A stretch of DNA of 48,372 nucleotides from Chitinophagaceae bacterium. Its GTDB lineage: Bacteria > Bacteroidota > Bacteroidia > Chitinophagales > Chitinophagaceae. The position numbers were made by a program, and so were the translations under genes. Location of the stretch: NCBI GenBank assembly GCA_947453295.1, contig CANGGD010000004.1:1-48372 (forward strand). Direction: 5' to 3'. Positions 11,023-16,689 of the stretch are shown piece after piece. The stretch's first letter is position 1, and each line of letters starts with the position of its first letter. The notes below the pieces were generated by a model. The model searched no databases. It saw nothing but the letters and a program-made list of their open reading frames with translations, and was not told the DNA's origin.

Positions 11023-13161
11023 TCAATTGAGCATTAATAAAATTTTTTGACCTTTTGAAAAATTAGAGCCTGGTTTTAAACTTTGACTATATACTTTTCC
11101 TTTTCCTGTAACCACGGTTGTTAGTCCTTTATTTTCTAATAGATATACTGCATCTTTTAAACCCATTCCTGTTACATTAGGAGTGATGTTTGACACTGTA
11201 GAAATTTGAGCAGGTTCACTTAATCCTGCATAGTTATTTTTATAGTTAATGGATCTCCAAATACTTGTAGAAGAAGAAAAAACAGAATCTTGATAAGCAA
11301 TTCCGATGGTGTTGAATATTTTTTGAGCATCATTTTTTAATCCGATATAACTATACAATGCTGTATCAATTGTAATATTTTCTTTGCGGTTAGGCTTACT
11401 CAAAAAATGATTATATATTTTATCACTTACTTCTTTAAAAACGGTACCCGATACATCAGCGCCATAAATCCGTTTAGACTTTTTACTGTTTTGAATAACA
11501 ACAGCCATTGTGTATTTTGGACTTTCTGCAGGAAAATAACCTATAAAAGAAGCTTGATAAATTTTATTCCCTTTATTATACCCTTTATTGTTGAGTGCTG
11601 ATACGGCAGTTCCTGTCTTCCCTGCAATTGAATATGCAGAATCAAACATGACTTTATGCGCTGTGCCATGTGCACTATCTACAACAGCTTTCATACATTC
11701 TCTTGCTTGAACTAGTGCTTCATCGCTTGCAATCTTATCAACCAAAACAGTTGGTTCAAATTTTTCAACTTCTATGCCATAATTACGAATAGAATTAACT
11801 AAATAAGGTTTCATCATTTTACCATTATTAGCAACTGCATTGTATAGCATTAGCATATGTAAAGGAGTAACTAATTCCTCATAACCATGTGCCATAAATG
11901 GTATGGTAGTTTTGCCCCAACTTTTGTTATTTGGACTTTTGATTACTGGCATTCCAGAAGAAGCAACAATATCTATACCTGTAGATTTGTTGAGTCTGAA
12001 ACGATCAAGATGTTGCCACCATTTCATGGGCTGATCTTGGTAATATTGTGTTGCTAACTTAGCAAACGCAACATTACTACTTCTAGCAAATGCATCTTTT
12101 ACTGTAATAACACCAGTGCCTAAATGAGAATCTTTGATTCTTAAACCTGAAAAATATTTCACGCCACCTTCGCAATCAACCATTGAGTTGATAGTTACAT
12201 ATTTATCATCTAATAAACTTAATAACGTAGCTAATTTAAAAATCGATCCCGGTTCGGTTGATTTACCGATTCCATAATTTAAGTCTTCAGAATAAGTACT
12301 GTCCTTCTCTTGAATCCCAAGATTCGCAATAGCTTTAATTTTGCCTGTTGAAGTTTCCATCACAATAACTGTTCCATGTATTGAGTTGTTTGTAACCAAC
12401 ATTTTCATCAACGCATTCTCAGCCACATCTTGAATATATGTATCTAAAGTTGTGATGATGTCTTTTCCATTGATTGGCTCAAATTCTCCACCTTCAACTG
12501 GCATATATCCACCTGCCACATATCTAACCAAACGCTCTCCAGATGTGCCTCTCAAAACACTATCATAAGATTTTTCTAACCCGACATTTTTTTGAGGATC
12601 CAATCTTGATAAGCCAATTGTTCTATTAGCCATTAAGCCATAAGGATTAATTCTTTTATCTTTTTGAAAGAAATTAAATCCGCTTTTGTATTTTCCTTCT
12701 CTTATCAAAGGAAACTCTCTCATTTGTTTATACTCCTCGAAATTGACCTTTCTTTTTAAAACATAATAAGGTTCTTTCTCTTGGTAAGCTTGTACTAACT
12801 TTTGCTTGTATTCATCAGCAGAAATTGAATCATCAAATAATTGATCAATATAGAAACAAAGTGAATCTATGTTTTCTGAAAATCTTTTGCCGTTTTTTTC
12901 ATGCAATCCCTCTACTCTAAAATCAATCACAACATCATATACGGGAACTGAAGTACTTAAAATACTGCCATCTTCACTGTATATACTGCCTCTCTCTGCA
13001 ACTATAGGAACAAATTTTTGTAAACTATCTCCTTTACTTCTCCAATATTTACCTTCAACGGTTTGGATTAAGAAAGCTTTCCCTATAACCAGAAAGCCGA
13101 TTAACATGATGCACACAAAACACAAGTACACCCTCCATAATATGTCTTTTCTAATATCCAA
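11023..13161 (-). CDS. ftsI: Septal penicillin-binding protein FtsI/PBP3 with C-terminal PASTA domain (TTG start)
   Basis: FtsI is the class B transpeptidase that cross-links septal peptidoglycan and partners FtsW. The 712 residues comprise a membrane anchor (about 12-32), a pedestal domain with the ERGSIYSEDG motif (about 56-65), and the transpeptidase with its three motifs: S306-I-F-K309, S361-S-N363 and K515-T-G-T518. The last 60 or so residues (NVTGMGLKDAVYLLENKG onward) form one PASTA domain. The start is TTG: an in-frame TAG lies three codons upstream, no ATG fits, and the MDIRKDILWRVYL N-terminus matches Bacteroidota relatives. Met19 is the only later candidate and would cut into the anchor. 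Confidence 0.95.
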   Translation of the reverse strand: MDIRKDILWRVYLCFVCIMLIGFLVIGKAFLIQTVEGKYWRSKGDSLQKFVPIVAERGSIYSEDGSILSTSVPVYDVVIDFRVEGLHEKNGKRFSENIDSLCFYIDQLFDDSISADEYKQKLVQAYQEKEPYYVLKRKVNFEEYKQMREFPLIREGKYKSGFNFFQKDKRINPYGLMANRTIGLSRLDPQKNVGLEKSYDSVLRGTSGERLVRYVAGGYMPVEGGEFEPINGKDIITTLDTYIQDVAENALMKMLVTNNSIHGTVIVMETSTGKIKAIANLGIQEKDSTYSEDLNYGIGKSTEPGSIFKLATLLSLLDDKYVTINSMVDCEGGVKYFSGLRIKDSHLGTGVITVKDAFARSSNVAFAKLATQYYQDQPMKWWQHLDRFRLNKSTGIDIVASSGMPVIKSPNNKSWGKTTIPFMAHGYEELVTPLHMLMLYNAVANNGKMMKPYLVNSIRNYGIEVEKFEPTVLVDKIASDEALVQARECMKAVVDSAHGTAHKVMFDSAYSIAGKTGTAVSALNNKGYNKGNKIYQASFIGYFPAESPKYTMAVVIQNSKKSKRIYGADVSGTVFKEVSDKIYNHFLSKPNRKENITIDTALYSYIGLKNDAQKIFNTIGIAYQDSVFSSSTSIWRSINYKNNYAGLSEPAQISTVSNITPNVTGMGLKDAVYLLENKGLTTVVTGKGKVYSQSLKPGSNFSKGQKILLMLN

Positions 13162-13204: not shown

Positions 13205-13552
13205 TTATTTTTTTTCTTTCGAAGAATCAACAAGCAACACTGGCGGTGCTTTCAACTCCTTTAAACCCATAGGTTCTACCACTTTTGAAAGCTCACTGAA
13301 CTTACTTCTATAAATCACTTCACTTTTAACACATTTATATTCGTATTCTAACTCTTTTACACTTTTCTCTAACTTGCTAATTTTTCTTGTCAAACCATCC
13401 GCATAGTGACCTATAAAAATGTATATAATTGCTAACGATGAAACAAATAATATGAAAGGGATATTTTTTACAATTGTACTTGCTTTAAAATATTTTTTAA
13501 ATTCAAGTTTACCTGAATTTTTTTTCTCTATAGTGTTTTTGTTGTCAATCAT
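13205..13552 (-). CDS. ftsL: FtsL-like cell division protein
   Basis: This is a small bitopic protein of 115 residues: a basic N-terminus, one membrane helix (about 30-49), then a charged heptad-like coiled coil (GLTRKISKLEKSVKELEYEY) up to about residue 85. FtsL acts with the FtsB/FtsQ complex to activate FtsWI. Sequence conservation of FtsL is low, so the assignment comes from topology, size and position between rsmH (3 bp gap) and ftsI. Bacteroidota often carry such a divergent FtsL-like protein at this place. Confidence 0.8.
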   Translation of the reverse strand: MIDNKNTIEKKNSGKLEFKKYFKASTIVKNIPFILFVSSLAIIYIFIGHYADGLTRKISKLEKSVKELEYEYKCVKSEVIYRSKFSELSKVVEPMGLKELKAPPVLLVDSSKEKK

Positions 13553-13555
13553 TCT

Positions 13556-14512
13556 TTAACTGTTTTTTTCTGCGACTCTTAGTTTTGCACTTCTAGATCT
13601 CGGATTTTTTAAACACTCTTCTTTTCCTGCAACAATTGGTTTCTTTGTAATTACACTTAATGAACTCTTTGGTTTACTTCCATACACATCATCAATCTCA
13701 ACTATTTCTAATGATCCATTTTTAATAAAATTCTTTACCACTCTATCTTCTAATGAATGGAAGGTAATTACTGATAATCTTCCATTTTTGTTTAGCAACT
13801 TCAAAGACTGACTTAACATTTCTTTTAAAGATCCAATTTCATCGTTCACTTCAATTCTCAAAGCCTGAAAAACCTGAGCCAAATATTTATTGGGATTCCC
13901 TTTTACTACTTCTTGAATCGCTTGCTTAAACTGACTTATCGTTTTTAAAGGCGAAATTTTTCTTTTCGAAACAATTGTTTTAGCAAGTGTTTTCGAATTC
14001 GTTACCTCACCATAGATTTCAAACAGCTTATGCAATTGTTGTTCTGAATAGGTTTGTAAAATATCAGCTGCAGTTAGCGTTTGTCTTCTATCCATTCTCA
14101 TATCAAGATTGGCATCAAACCTAATCGAGAAGCCTCGCTCTGCTTCATCAAACTGATGACTAGAAACTCCTAAATCGGCTAATATTCCATCTACTTTTAA
14201 ACATTTTTGAACCCTAAGGAATTTTTGCAAATGGCGAAAATTTTGTTGAATAAAAACAACCCTGTCGTCATTTGGCAAGTTTTGTTTTGCATTGATATCT
14301 TGATCAAATACAAAAAGTTTTCCTGCATTTCCTAAGCGTTTCAAAATCTCTCTGCTGTGTCCACCGCCGCCAAAGGTGCAATCAACATAAACACCATCTT
14401 GTCGAATGTTTAACCCATCAACAGTCTCGATTAACAAAACAGGAATATGATAGTCGTTTGATTTTTCAGTTGACGTTATGCCGTCTGCTGTTTGATTTTC
14501 ATTTGACTTCAT
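13556..14512 (-). CDS. rsmH: 16S rRNA (cytosine1402-N4)-methyltransferase RsmH
   Basis: RsmH (MraW) methylates N4 of C1402 in the ribosomal P site. About 318 residues show YHIPVLLIETVDGL, the SAM-binding glycine motif DCTFGGGGHSREIL, LADLGVSSHQFDEAERGFS, and the C-terminal FHSLEDRVVK and PRSRSAKLRV motifs, all diagnostic. The ATG at the complement of 14510-14512 is preferred. A TTG two codons upstream overlaps the mraZ stop and is the alternative. Its position directly after mraZ is the standard start of a dcw operon. Confidence 0.97.
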   Translation of the reverse strand: MKSNENQTADGITSTEKSNDYHIPVLLIETVDGLNIRQDGVYVDCTFGGGGHSREILKRLGNAGKLFVFDQDINAKQNLPNDDRVVFIQQNFRHLQKFLRVQKCLKVDGILADLGVSSHQFDEAERGFSIRFDANLDMRMDRRQTLTAADILQTYSEQQLHKLFEIYGEVTNSKTLAKTIVSKRKISPLKTISQFKQAIQEVVKGNPNKYLAQVFQALRIEVNDEIGSLKEMLSQSLKLLNKNGRLSVITFHSLEDRVVKNFIKNGSLEIVEIDDVYGSKPKSSLSVITKKPIVAGKEECLKNPRSRSAKLRVAEKNS

Positions 14513-14514
14513 TT

Positions 14515-14982
14515 TCAACTATTCTGCTTGTCATCATTTTTATTCATTACTTCATTTGCCAAATTGCTAAATCCGTCTGGCGTCATATCATCAAAGAACT
14601 CTTGGTATTTTTGCTTATCCCAAATCTCAATCTTGTTCATGGCAGATACTAATACTATGTCTTTCTCTAGTCCTGCATATTCCATTAATGATTTTGGTAA
14701 TAATAATCTTCCGGCTGTATCCAAATCAATTTGTGTAGCGCCATTTAAAAAATAGCGTCTAAAGGCTCTAACTTTAGGATCGAAATCGTTGAGTAAACTA
14801 ATTTTCTCTTGTAAAGGCTTCCAGCTTGTAATTGGATAAAGTGTTAAACATTTTTCAAACCCTCTATTTAATACAAAAGTTGAACCCTCTAATGCCGGCA
14901 ATTGCTTTTTAAAACCAGCAGGCAAGAGAAATCTTCCTTTTGCATCAACAGTAGATTCATATTCGCCTATGAAACCTATCAT
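14515..14982 (-). CDS. mraZ: Transcriptional regulator MraZ
   Basis: MraZ is the conserved first gene of dcw clusters, a ring-forming DNA-binding protein that recognises repeated GTGG-type boxes in front of its own operon. The 155 residues have the N-terminal FIGEYESTVDAKGRFLLPAGF and a second copy of the AbrB-like fold, beginning GATQIDLDTAGRLLLPKSL, as in the family. The usual length is about 140-155. The start ATG (complement at 14980-14982) lies about 33 bp from a GTG array with 10-bp period (annotated below), which fits autoregulation. Confidence 0.97.
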   Translation of the reverse strand: MIGFIGEYESTVDAKGRFLLPAGFKKQLPALEGSTFVLNRGFEKCLTLYPITSWKPLQEKISLLNDFDPKVRAFRRYFLNGATQIDLDTAGRLLLPKSLMEYAGLEKDIVLVSAMNKIEIWDKQKYQEFFDDMTPDGFSNLANEVMNKNDDKQNS

Positions 14983-15013
14983 TTTTTGGGATTTGAGTTA
15001 TTAATTAAATGTT

Positions 15014-15042
15014 GACACAAAATAACACAATTTCCCACTTTA
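15014..15042 (-). promoter_or_regulatory. Putative MraZ operator: three GTG boxes with 10-bp period
   Basis: Read on the minus strand, AAAGTGGG is followed by two further GTG elements. The CAC triplets on the plus strand lie at 15016-15018, 15026-15028 and 15036-15038, exactly 10 bp apart. Known MraZ sites are GTGG-containing boxes repeated every 10 bp just upstream of mraZ, so spacing and place fit; only the first box is a full match. The site lies about 33-56 bp upstream of the mraZ ATG. No confident -33/-7 pair could be assigned next to it. Confidence 0.6.
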
Positions 15043-15066
15043 ATACATCTTTTTACACCAACATAT

Positions 15067-15075
15067 TTATCCACA
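15067..15075 (+). promoter_or_regulatory. DnaA box, perfect consensus TTATCCACA
   Basis: A perfect nine-base DnaA box lies 85 bp upstream of mraZ. It is one of three in the 192-bp region between mraZ and the histidine kinase gene. Confidence 0.7.
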
Positions 15076-15138
15076 AAGTGATATAGCCCAATAACATTGG
15101 TTTTTTCAGCAAATTTTAGTGATTTTTAGACTGGCGAC

Positions 15139-15147
15139 TGTGGATAT
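15139..15147 (-). promoter_or_regulatory. Near-perfect DnaA box (8 of 9)
   Basis: On the minus strand this reads ATATCCACA, one mismatch from TTATCCACA. It lies in the same orientation as the box at 15159-15167 and exactly 20 bp, about two helical turns, from it. Confidence 0.55.
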
Positions 15148-15158
15148 AGGTGAATTCG

Positions 15159-15167
15159 TGTGGATAA
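15159..15167 (-). promoter_or_regulatory. DnaA box, perfect consensus on the minus strand
   Basis: Minus-strand TTATCCACA, located 8 bp beyond the histidine kinase stop codon. Together with the boxes at 15067 and 15139 it forms a cluster just upstream of the dcw run. Confidence 0.7.
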
Positions 15168-15174
15168 GTGCGAT

Positions 15175-16500
15175 TTAGCTTGCTTGTGGTAGCAAAATGG
15201 TAAACCTAGAGCCAATTCCTAAAGTGCTCTCTACTTTTATTGTTCCTTTATGAGCTTCTATTACTGACTTAACATAGCTTAACCCTAAGCCAAATCCTTT
15301 TACATTATGAATATTGCCTGTATGGGCTCGATAAAATTTTTCAAAAATCTGTTTAATTGTATCTTTTGACATCCCTATACCATCATCACTGATAACAATT
15401 TTAATGTCTTTACCCTTAGATTCTGTGTGAAGTTTTATTGTTACACCTTCTGGTTTAGAATATTTTATGGCATTATCTAAAATATTATTGATGATGTTGC
15501 TAAAATGTAGTTCGTCTGCAAAAATCACATCCGAACTCGCCTCTAAATTAGTAGCGATTTTCCCGTTTTTTTCTTGTAATGTAAGCATTGAATTATCAAC
15601 TGCTTGTTGTATAAACTGATGTGCTGAAATTAATTTTCGGTTCAATTGAATCTCCTTATTATCCAACAAAGAAGCCTGTAAAATTGATTCTACTTGCTTG
15701 TTCATTCTTTTGTTTTCAGATTTTATTACACTAATAAAATACTCGGATTTAGTTGGGTCAGCAATTACTTTTTCGTTTTTCAATGCATCGATTGCCAAAG
15801 AAATAGTAGCAATAGGTGTTTTAAACTCATGGGTCATGTTGTTAATGAAATCTGTTTTGATTTCACTGATTTTCTTTTGCGAAAGCAATGTTCTAATAGT
15901 GAGAAAAAATGCAGTGGTAATGATGATTGTAAAAAGAATTGTGCCTATTATAAACCAAAATATTTCTTTGAAAACAATAGCTGATTGATGAGGTACGATT
16001 ACGACTAAAAACTCCTCCTTTGTGATATCATCTATGGCTCCGGAATTATTCGTCTCTAATGGAATGGCAATATTTGTATTATTAGCAGAATCAGAAAAGA
16101 ATTTGAAAAAATTATCGCTTTGCATTTGATTACCAGTAATACTGTTATCAGACACTGCAAATTCAAATGGGACTCCTTCTAAGAAATGTTTTGTGAATGA
16201 ATTACGAATGACAGAAGATATTTCTTCTTTAGTAAATCTATCCATTACAGATATTGAGAAAACATCTGAAATATTATTTTTCTTTTTTAAAAAATATTCT
16301 TTGGATTGATTTAGAGATGTAATTACGGAGCTTGGTTTCGTTAGTTCTTCTGCTGCTTCGGAGGTAGCAATATATATGTTTTCGCGCAACTGTTTTTCCT
16401 TGGTTTTGCGAGCTGTGTTTAACCACAAAATTTGAAAATAAATAAGCCCAAAAAGTGACATTGTAATTAATACAACTATTAATGGAAAGTTTTTTTTCAT
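15175..16500 (-). CDS. Sensor histidine kinase, orphan
   Basis: This is a membrane-bound two-component sensor of about 441 residues. It has one membrane helix (about 6-26), a periplasmic sensor region of about 150 residues with no family I recognise, a second helix (about 180-203), then the HisKA motif NNMTHEFKTPIATIS (phospho-acceptor His near 224) and a HATPase_c domain with NNILDNAIKYS, SDDGIGMS and GFGLGLSYVK. No HAMP domain is evident between helix 2 and HisKA. No response regulator gene is nearby. The ATG at 16500 is chosen over an upstream TTG (16524), because MKKNFPLIVVLI gives a clean signal-anchor start. It is co-directional with, and 192 bp upstream of, mraZ; its ligand is unknown. 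Confidence 0.9.
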   Translation of the reverse strand: MKKNFPLIVVLITMSLFGLIYFQILWLNTARKTKEKQLRENIYIATSEAAEELTKPSSVITSLNQSKEYFLKKKNNISDVFSISVMDRFTKEEISSVIRNSFTKHFLEGVPFEFAVSDNSITGNQMQSDNFFKFFSDSANNTNIAIPLETNNSGAIDDITKEEFLVVIVPHQSAIVFKEIFWFIIGTILFTIIITTAFFLTIRTLLSQKKISEIKTDFINNMTHEFKTPIATISLAIDALKNEKVIADPTKSEYFISVIKSENKRMNKQVESILQASLLDNKEIQLNRKLISAHQFIQQAVDNSMLTLQEKNGKIATNLEASSDVIFADELHFSNIINNILDNAIKYSKPEGVTIKLHTESKGKDIKIVISDDGIGMSKDTIKQIFEKFYRAHTGNIHNVKGFGLGLSYVKSVIEAHKGTIKVESTLGIGSRFTILLPQAS

Positions 16501-16689
16501 TTTATACTTTATTGTGAATAGCAAGCTTTCTATTGGAAAACCAAGAAACCAGCGTAAAGTTATGATTGTAAAAGCATTTCTTATAAAACTTGCAGCCTTA
16601 TTTATATCAGTTTAATTTGGGGGATTTCAAAAAACAGTATTCTTGCTTCAAAACATTTATGAGAATTAGTATAAACAAGTGTTTTATTT

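Follow-up and report, generated by a model that had tools for sequence, protein, structure and literature searches.

DnaA is known at the ftsL promoter of Bacillus subtilis and the ftsZ promoter of Caulobacter crescentus, and DnaA boxes upstream of Escherichia coli ftsZ are described as having no role in ftsZ transcription (PMC8203912). The ftsL operon of B. subtilis includes rsmH and pbpB, and under a block of origin boxes in this species RsmH and PbpB appeared unchanged and FtsL was undetected (PMC8203912, PMC11019786). The locus described here resembles the ftsL and ftsZ cases in that DnaA sites are predicted at a division-gene promoter; it differs in that those cases concern single genes in distant phyla, for which the available parts of the two articles report neither a MraZ operator at a fixed distance nor a family-wide array. 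In E. coli and mollicutes, a MraZ box of AAAGTGK-N3 repeats lies over the mraZ promoter (PMC5282649, PMC8475190), with no DnaA-box coupling reported in the accessible sections of these papers, whereas the locus described here has both in a rigid module. DnaA and MraZ sites do meet at mioC of E. coli, a DnaA-repressed promoter at which a MraZ site overlaps a DnaA box and MraZ overproduction lowers mioC transcription (PMC4446571, citing Eraso 2014), so a meeting of the two proteins has precedent. That promoter, however, lies beside oriC and drives mioC, whereas the present locus has separate, arrayed predicted sites at the mraZ promoter.

Two further E. coli systems bear on the layout of the boxes. 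At oriC, weak boxes of the same orientation, 2 bp apart, are filled from a strong box (PMC6727663). The array described here likewise has weak same-orientation boxes, with gaps of 1-2 bp, but it precedes a promoter and lies far from the origin. The datA and DARS loci are also DnaA-box clusters outside oriC and, to our knowledge, are not tied to promoter geometry. The literature searched, which covered few subscription journals and in which some articles were available in part, described DnaA boxes neither at mraZ nor in Chitinophaga, and the main text of PMC4447404 does not mention ftsL, yllB or mraZ. DnaA at single division promoters is thus known, and a family-wide array fused to a MraZ operator was not found in these sources.

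Predicted DnaA boxes and MraZ operator upstream of mraZ

The window, that is, the whole 48,372-nucleotide stretch analysed, comes from a draft genome of a Chitinophagaceae bacterium (2.08 Mb, 173 contigs, 95.5% complete) and carries a dcw cluster headed by mraZ. A gap of 192 bp separates the mraZ start (14982) from the stop of a histidine-kinase ORF (15175). Features of the cluster and the gap are as follows:

11023..13161, minus strand: gene for a penicillin-binding protein with PASTA domain, ftsI-like (Pfam PF00905, PF03717, PF03793)
13205..13552, minus strand: ftsL-like gene (Pfam PF19579)
13556..14518, minus strand: rsmH/mraW (Pfam PF01795)
14515..14982, minus strand: mraZ, first gene of the dcw cluster (Pfam PF02381)
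15016..15058, minus strand: predicted MraZ operator, with GTG, ATG, GTG, GTG, GTG towards mraZ in 10-bp steps; core AAAGTGGGAAATTGTGTTATTTTGTG
15018..15025, minus strand: predicted -7 promoter element TTATTTTG, one mismatch to TAnnTTTG (family logo and published consensus)
15067..15075, plus strand: predicted proximal DnaA box, TTATCCACA, perfect; inverted relative to the distal array, so that the mraZ strand reads TGTGGATAA
15139..15147, minus strand: predicted distal DnaA box 3, ATATCCACA, 8/9 (sequence match and alignment)
15149..15157, minus strand: predicted distal DnaA box 2, degenerate GAATTCACC, 10 bp from either neighbour (alignment of close relatives)
15159..15167, minus strand: predicted distal DnaA box 1, TTATCCACA, perfect (sequence match and alignment of close relatives)
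15175..16524, minus strand: histidine kinase gene, reading towards mraZ (ORF list and Pfam)

An initial annotation of this DNA had placed three DnaA-type sites in the 192 bp, and all three were recovered at the same positions. Its remark that a larger box array was lacking did not hold, as the degenerate GAATTCACC falls midway between the minus-strand boxes and makes them an array of three sites at 10-bp steps. This array lies downstream of the histidine-kinase stop and is therefore not the promoter of the kinase gene. Alignment with 15 close relatives shows a WATNCACA-type box in the 15149-15157 slot of all 15, and both the proximal box and TGTGGATAAA are identical across the 16 aligned sequences, the window included.

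The GTG array of 10-bp period that had been noted near mraZ is present, with four GTGs in phase (15016-15018, 15026-15028, 15036-15038 and 15056-15058), except that the in-phase slot between the last two is occupied by ATG; the operator fits the published MraZ site pattern, (AAAGTGK N3)3 (PMC5282649). It overlaps the predicted -7 element, transcription is predicted to start near 15013, and the centre of the proximal box is located about 57 bp upstream of this predicted start. The Bacteroidota -33/-7 consensus is TTTG and TAnnTTTG, the -33 motif not having been found in Flavobacterium johnsoniae according to the available text (PMC7366714). The family logo has TTTG about 21 bp before TTATTTTG, close to this consensus, and the window sequence lacks this -33 TTTG.

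Chance as the origin of the boxes is ruled out by shuffles of the gap and by box counts in the source genome. Two perfect 9-mers so close together had been thought unlikely to arise by chance, and dinucleotide shuffles agreed: among 5,000, at least one perfect box appeared in 26, two in none, and three boxes within one mismatch in none. Perfect boxes, for which a genome-wide scan had been proposed in case they were frequent, are rare, with 13 in the 2.08 Mb of the source genome (30 for a reversed-word control), 3 of them inside ORFs of at least 80 codons. Pairs of perfect boxes less than 100 bp apart were seen twice, compared with 0.0075 expected, and these two are the mraZ gap and the interval between dnaB and pheT. 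Boxes with one mismatch are not enriched genome-wide (681 versus 682 for the control), so the weight of the argument is carried only by perfect boxes, arrays and conservation.

Conservation of the arrangement in the Chitinophagaceae

The family was assigned as Chitinophagaceae from the nearest MraZ loci with names. Of its 98 genomes, 96 gave a MraZ match; almost every one of these represents a different genus, and all 96 upstream regions were read. Perfect boxes number 32, 40, 4 and 1 in successive 100-bp bins upstream of the mraZ ATG, with none from 400 to 1,200 bp (73 to 95 genomes reach that far). The first 200 bp thus hold 72, compared with 0.16 expected from 3,460 perfect boxes in 419 Mb, a frequency too low for pairs to be expected. 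A perfect box occurs within 250 bp of mraZ in 55 of the 96 genomes and is missing from the other 41. The inverted proximal box, TGTGGAWAA, matches at 8/9 or better in 90/96 genomes and fully in 78, versus 20/940 and 0 in control windows of equal size; its rows were preselected for likeness to TGTGGAWAA, which makes this measure of conservation partly circular. The six genomes without a proximal box at 8/9 are G011, G032, G037, G044, G045 and G046. The proximal box stands 37 bp from the MraZ core, GTGGGAAAAAGTGTTATTTTGTG, in 76/90 genomes and 35-38 bp from it in 89/90, despite a distance to the ATG that varies from -80 to -97, and the commonest word at the site is TGTGGAAAA (46). Of 80 named MraZ loci, two were excluded for short upstream sequence; the proximal box is present in 76 of the remaining 78, and in 72 it stands 37 bp away from the MraZ core. 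These loci overlap with the 96-genome set (L025 and L249 are the same stretch) and are not independent of it. Most flanking columns outside the motifs are near zero bits in the family alignment logo, so that the sites look kept by selection.

The distal array is similarly constrained. Between -125 and -240, WATNCACA occurs 164 times in the mraZ direction versus 4 times in reverse across the family, with same-strand spacing peaks at 10, 11, 21, 32 and 42-43 bp (a single pair in the control region). Distances from a distal perfect box to the proximal box fall at 78-83, 90-93, 101-104 or 112-113 bp in 39 of 41 cases. A search for tandem boxes in the 98 genomes returned 82 places, spread over 48 genomes, compared with 12 for the reversed pattern (a table sum). 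Of the 82, 36 are located no more than 350 bp upstream of mraZ, in 30 genomes, and each of these is on the mraZ strand. At the spacings tested, 48 of the 96 mraZ genomes lack such a pair upstream of the gene; at least one direct WATNCACA is present in 88/96 and none in eight. The conservation in relatives that had been set as a test of the annotation was thus observed for position, orientation and helical phase across 96 genomes. We note a pair of weakly conserved positions (AA ... T, 1.0-1.1 bits, 20 bp apart) between the distal array and the proximal box, about 18 and 37-38 bp upstream of the latter, which may be a further protein site.

Outside the family the MraZ operator is more widespread than the boxes. 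Three GTG units in 10-bp step were present in 86/96 family genomes versus 31/62 others, and two units in 92/96 versus 56/62. These 62 non-family genomes, from 139 matches, comprise 60 from outside the order and 2 from within it; a perfect box lies within 250 bp in 2 of them, a direct WATNCACA is present in 4 and the proximal word in 3, and a tandem array upstream of mraZ was detected in 0/62. The other families of the order contributed 40 genomes, selected among 76 non-family matches; a perfect box was present in 11 of them, a tandem pair in 3, a direct WATNCACA in 15 and the proximal word in 7. Sister families therefore have the arrangement loosely and the remaining phylum rarely, and the counts suggest that the MraZ operator is old, that a nearby box is sporadic in the order, and that the rigid module belongs to the Chitinophagaceae. 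In many genomes of family f5, TTATTAACA or TTATCAACA directly precedes the MraZ repeats (for example, L182, L185 and L190); this word could be another initiator box or part of a promoter.

We interpret the gap as a composite promoter-operator at which DnaA and MraZ jointly control the dcw promoter (probability about 0.74). The link between replication and the division and wall genes proposed in the initial annotation is supported by the conservation and box frequencies described above, with DnaA binding predicted from the sites. The boxes might instead titrate DnaA or control its activity, as at datA or DARS, with the mraZ neighbourhood incidental, a reading that the initial annotation had also listed. 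They do form a tight cluster outside oriC, and chromosomal titration is supported in E. coli in the available parts of PMC12371093. However, boxes per site are few, helical phase is kept, and the position is tied to the promoter rather than independent of it, with 76 of 90 genomes showing the same 37-bp distance from the MraZ operator; moreover, the upstream neighbour changes between genomes and the module remains with mraZ. Pure titration is disfavoured on these grounds, and we consider it unlikely.

Origin words and the proteins predicted to read the sites

The words of the module recur at the replication origin of the family. In G018, a complete relative, GC skew over 20 sampled stretches switches sign, from negative values to positive ones, around a cluster of five perfect boxes next to nadA (2.376 Mb). 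The source genome has a comparable AT-rich gap between a ppiD-like gene and nadA (L015, contig C2, 8676-9149), with one perfect and several 8/9 boxes, which is likely its oriC. In the 700 bp upstream of nadA (the best 30 loci of 56 genomes with a match), the commonest 8-mers include GTGGAAAA, TGTGGAAA, AATTCACA and TATCCACA, which are words of the proximal box and distal array. These occur in 21, 20, 20 and 19, respectively, of the 29 loci with full flanks; the adjoining 750 bp give 1, 1, 0 and 0 of 29, and sequence far upstream of mraZ gives 5, 2, 1 and 2 of 92. The nadA-side enrichment of GTGGAAAA and TATCCACA marks both box variants as origin words; TAATAGTA and TAATAATA are also among the enriched nadA-side words in relatives, and a perfect TTATCCACA is found beside nadA in only 13 of the 30 best loci. 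TTWTNCACA, a DnaA-box consensus used for Clostridioides difficile (PMC7561715), covers both proximal variants. Under matrices built from origin boxes and from MraZ units, the proximal box scores a mean of 14.2 for DnaA and 6.5 for MraZ, and MraZ units score 5.2 for DnaA versus 15.1 for MraZ; the words of the DnaA matrix were chosen within one mismatch of TTATCCACA, so these scores are partly circular, whereas the 8-mer counts are not.

The DnaA recognition helix is present in relatives. Domain IV of the family DnaA matches 1j1v, a DnaA domain structure, and GGRDHTT was read by eye in 26 of the 30 best-scoring DnaA loci, the other four being without a readable translation. A PROSITE-like DnaA signature matched 0/30, probably because the pattern overruns the end of the domain slice. 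Of the 98 family genomes, 91 have a domain IV match, which in G024 and G033 is confined to short ORFs. Two Pfam domain models found no dnaA in the source draft genome, which we assume reflects an assembly gap, and six other family genomes also lack a DnaA domain match. ORFs of about 130-190 amino acids with the DnaA DNA-binding domain (for example, G034:C14:3309, G042:C32:25149 and G062:C23:36012) occur mostly alongside full-length DnaA.

A second alternative is that MraZ, not DnaA, reads the sites, TGTGGAWAA and the distal boxes being extra MraZ units. GTGGAAAA is close to the MraZ unit GTGGGAAAA, which the commonest proximal word, TGTGGAAAA, also resembles, so that part of the conservation of the proximal site could be due to MraZ. 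Tandem 10-bp spacing is MraZ-like too, GTGGAAAAC lies near the MraZ array in 3 of 4 f3 genomes, G286 (f48) and G256 (f41), and the overlap of sites at mioC provides a parallel (PMC4446571, in part). The distal boxes, however, are oppositely oriented and often read TTCACA or TGCACA, and the 36-bp GTG-to-GTG offset does not fit the 10-bp phase. GTGG in the proximal box is followed by A in 89/89 rows and then by T in 39/89, whereas the MraZ core mostly has G then A (the rows being preselected). Matrix scores assign the proximal box to DnaA, and the same words are found at the origin. We therefore reject MraZ as the reader of every site on distal orientation, logo, matrix scores and origin words, and give this reading little chance of being correct.

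A third alternative is that the target of the array is not mraZ but the gene upstream of it, which is often divergent (queA or bamD, names assigned by eye). The longest upstream ORF does face away from mraZ in 69 of 94 regions (7 in the mraZ direction, 18 unclear or absent), but in five cases (the window, G034, G045, G065 and G083) a kinase gene terminates there, so the module can serve only mraZ. Of these five, four carry the proximal box (all except G045) and four a distal WATNCACA (all except G065), and the distance to the MraZ operator is constant across the family. Control of the upstream gene only is rejected on this basis and appears highly improbable. Last, although its tandem and inverted boxes resemble half of E. 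coli oriC (PMC6727663, in part), the array is almost certainly neither part of an origin nor a second one, since mraZ of G018 lies at 2.763 Mb, 388 kb from the box cluster beside nadA and the skew switch seen there in the sampled stretches, which bears out the initial argument against a full oriC, and the source genome also has its box-bearing gap beside nadA.

Other box sites and a proposed control of the dcw promoter

Away from mraZ, 46 tandem places were found in the family, and the loci of 15 were examined: nadA (3), dnaB-pheT (2), HU (2), an smc-like gene (1), a sigma-factor gene (1), inside ORFs (2) and others (4), with identities checked for HU, nadA, SMC and sigma, and dnaB and the rest assigned by eye. 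The dnaB-pheT site of the source genome (L014, contig C24, 7251-7626), with two perfect boxes 97 bp apart between the two genes, is a sixteenth. Among the best 30 dnaB loci of 56 genomes with a match, WATNCACA occurs within 400 bp upstream in 29, in one orientation, and a perfect box in 14; spacing in several loci is about 21 or 41-43 bp, and these boxes may also serve pheT. A further box of the source genome stands about 90 bp ahead of a gyrB/parE-like ORF that is truncated by the contig end. Tandem arrays also lie upstream of HU genes in two genera and of the smc-like gene (L323, L326 and L346), hinting at a replication and chromosome regulon.

Joint control of the dcw promoter by DnaA and MraZ can be outlined from these observations. 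MraZ is a known repressor of the dcw promoter, and MraZ bound to the 10-bp GTG repeats over the predicted promoter would repress it. The DnaA sites have an oriC-like layout, with same-orientation, mostly weak boxes separated by gaps of 1-2 bp and an inverted box about 90 bp nearer the gene. Strong boxes would take DnaA first, and a rise in DnaA-ATP before initiation would then fill the array. The filled array could contact the inverted proximal box, possibly by looping, and this contact would alter mraZ-dcw transcription, more likely upward, given that the DnaA sites are upstream of the promoter rather than on top of it. The division and wall genes would in this way be transcribed in step with the same signal that fires oriC.

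Coupling of replication to division is an old open question in bacteria. In this family, an ordered, origin-like array of predicted DnaA boxes stands at the head of the division and wall cluster, beside a recognizable repressor operator, and the array in the window offers exact bases to mutate and a clear prediction. A more far-reaching version, which we put forward tentatively as possible but doubtful, is that the dcw promoter carries a copy of the origin's DnaA-ATP sensor, with an array that fills at the same threshold as oriC. One nucleotide-switched protein would then both license initiation and start division, with MraZ as the brake, and the boxes at dnaB-pheT, HU and smc would belong to a replication-to-division regulon.
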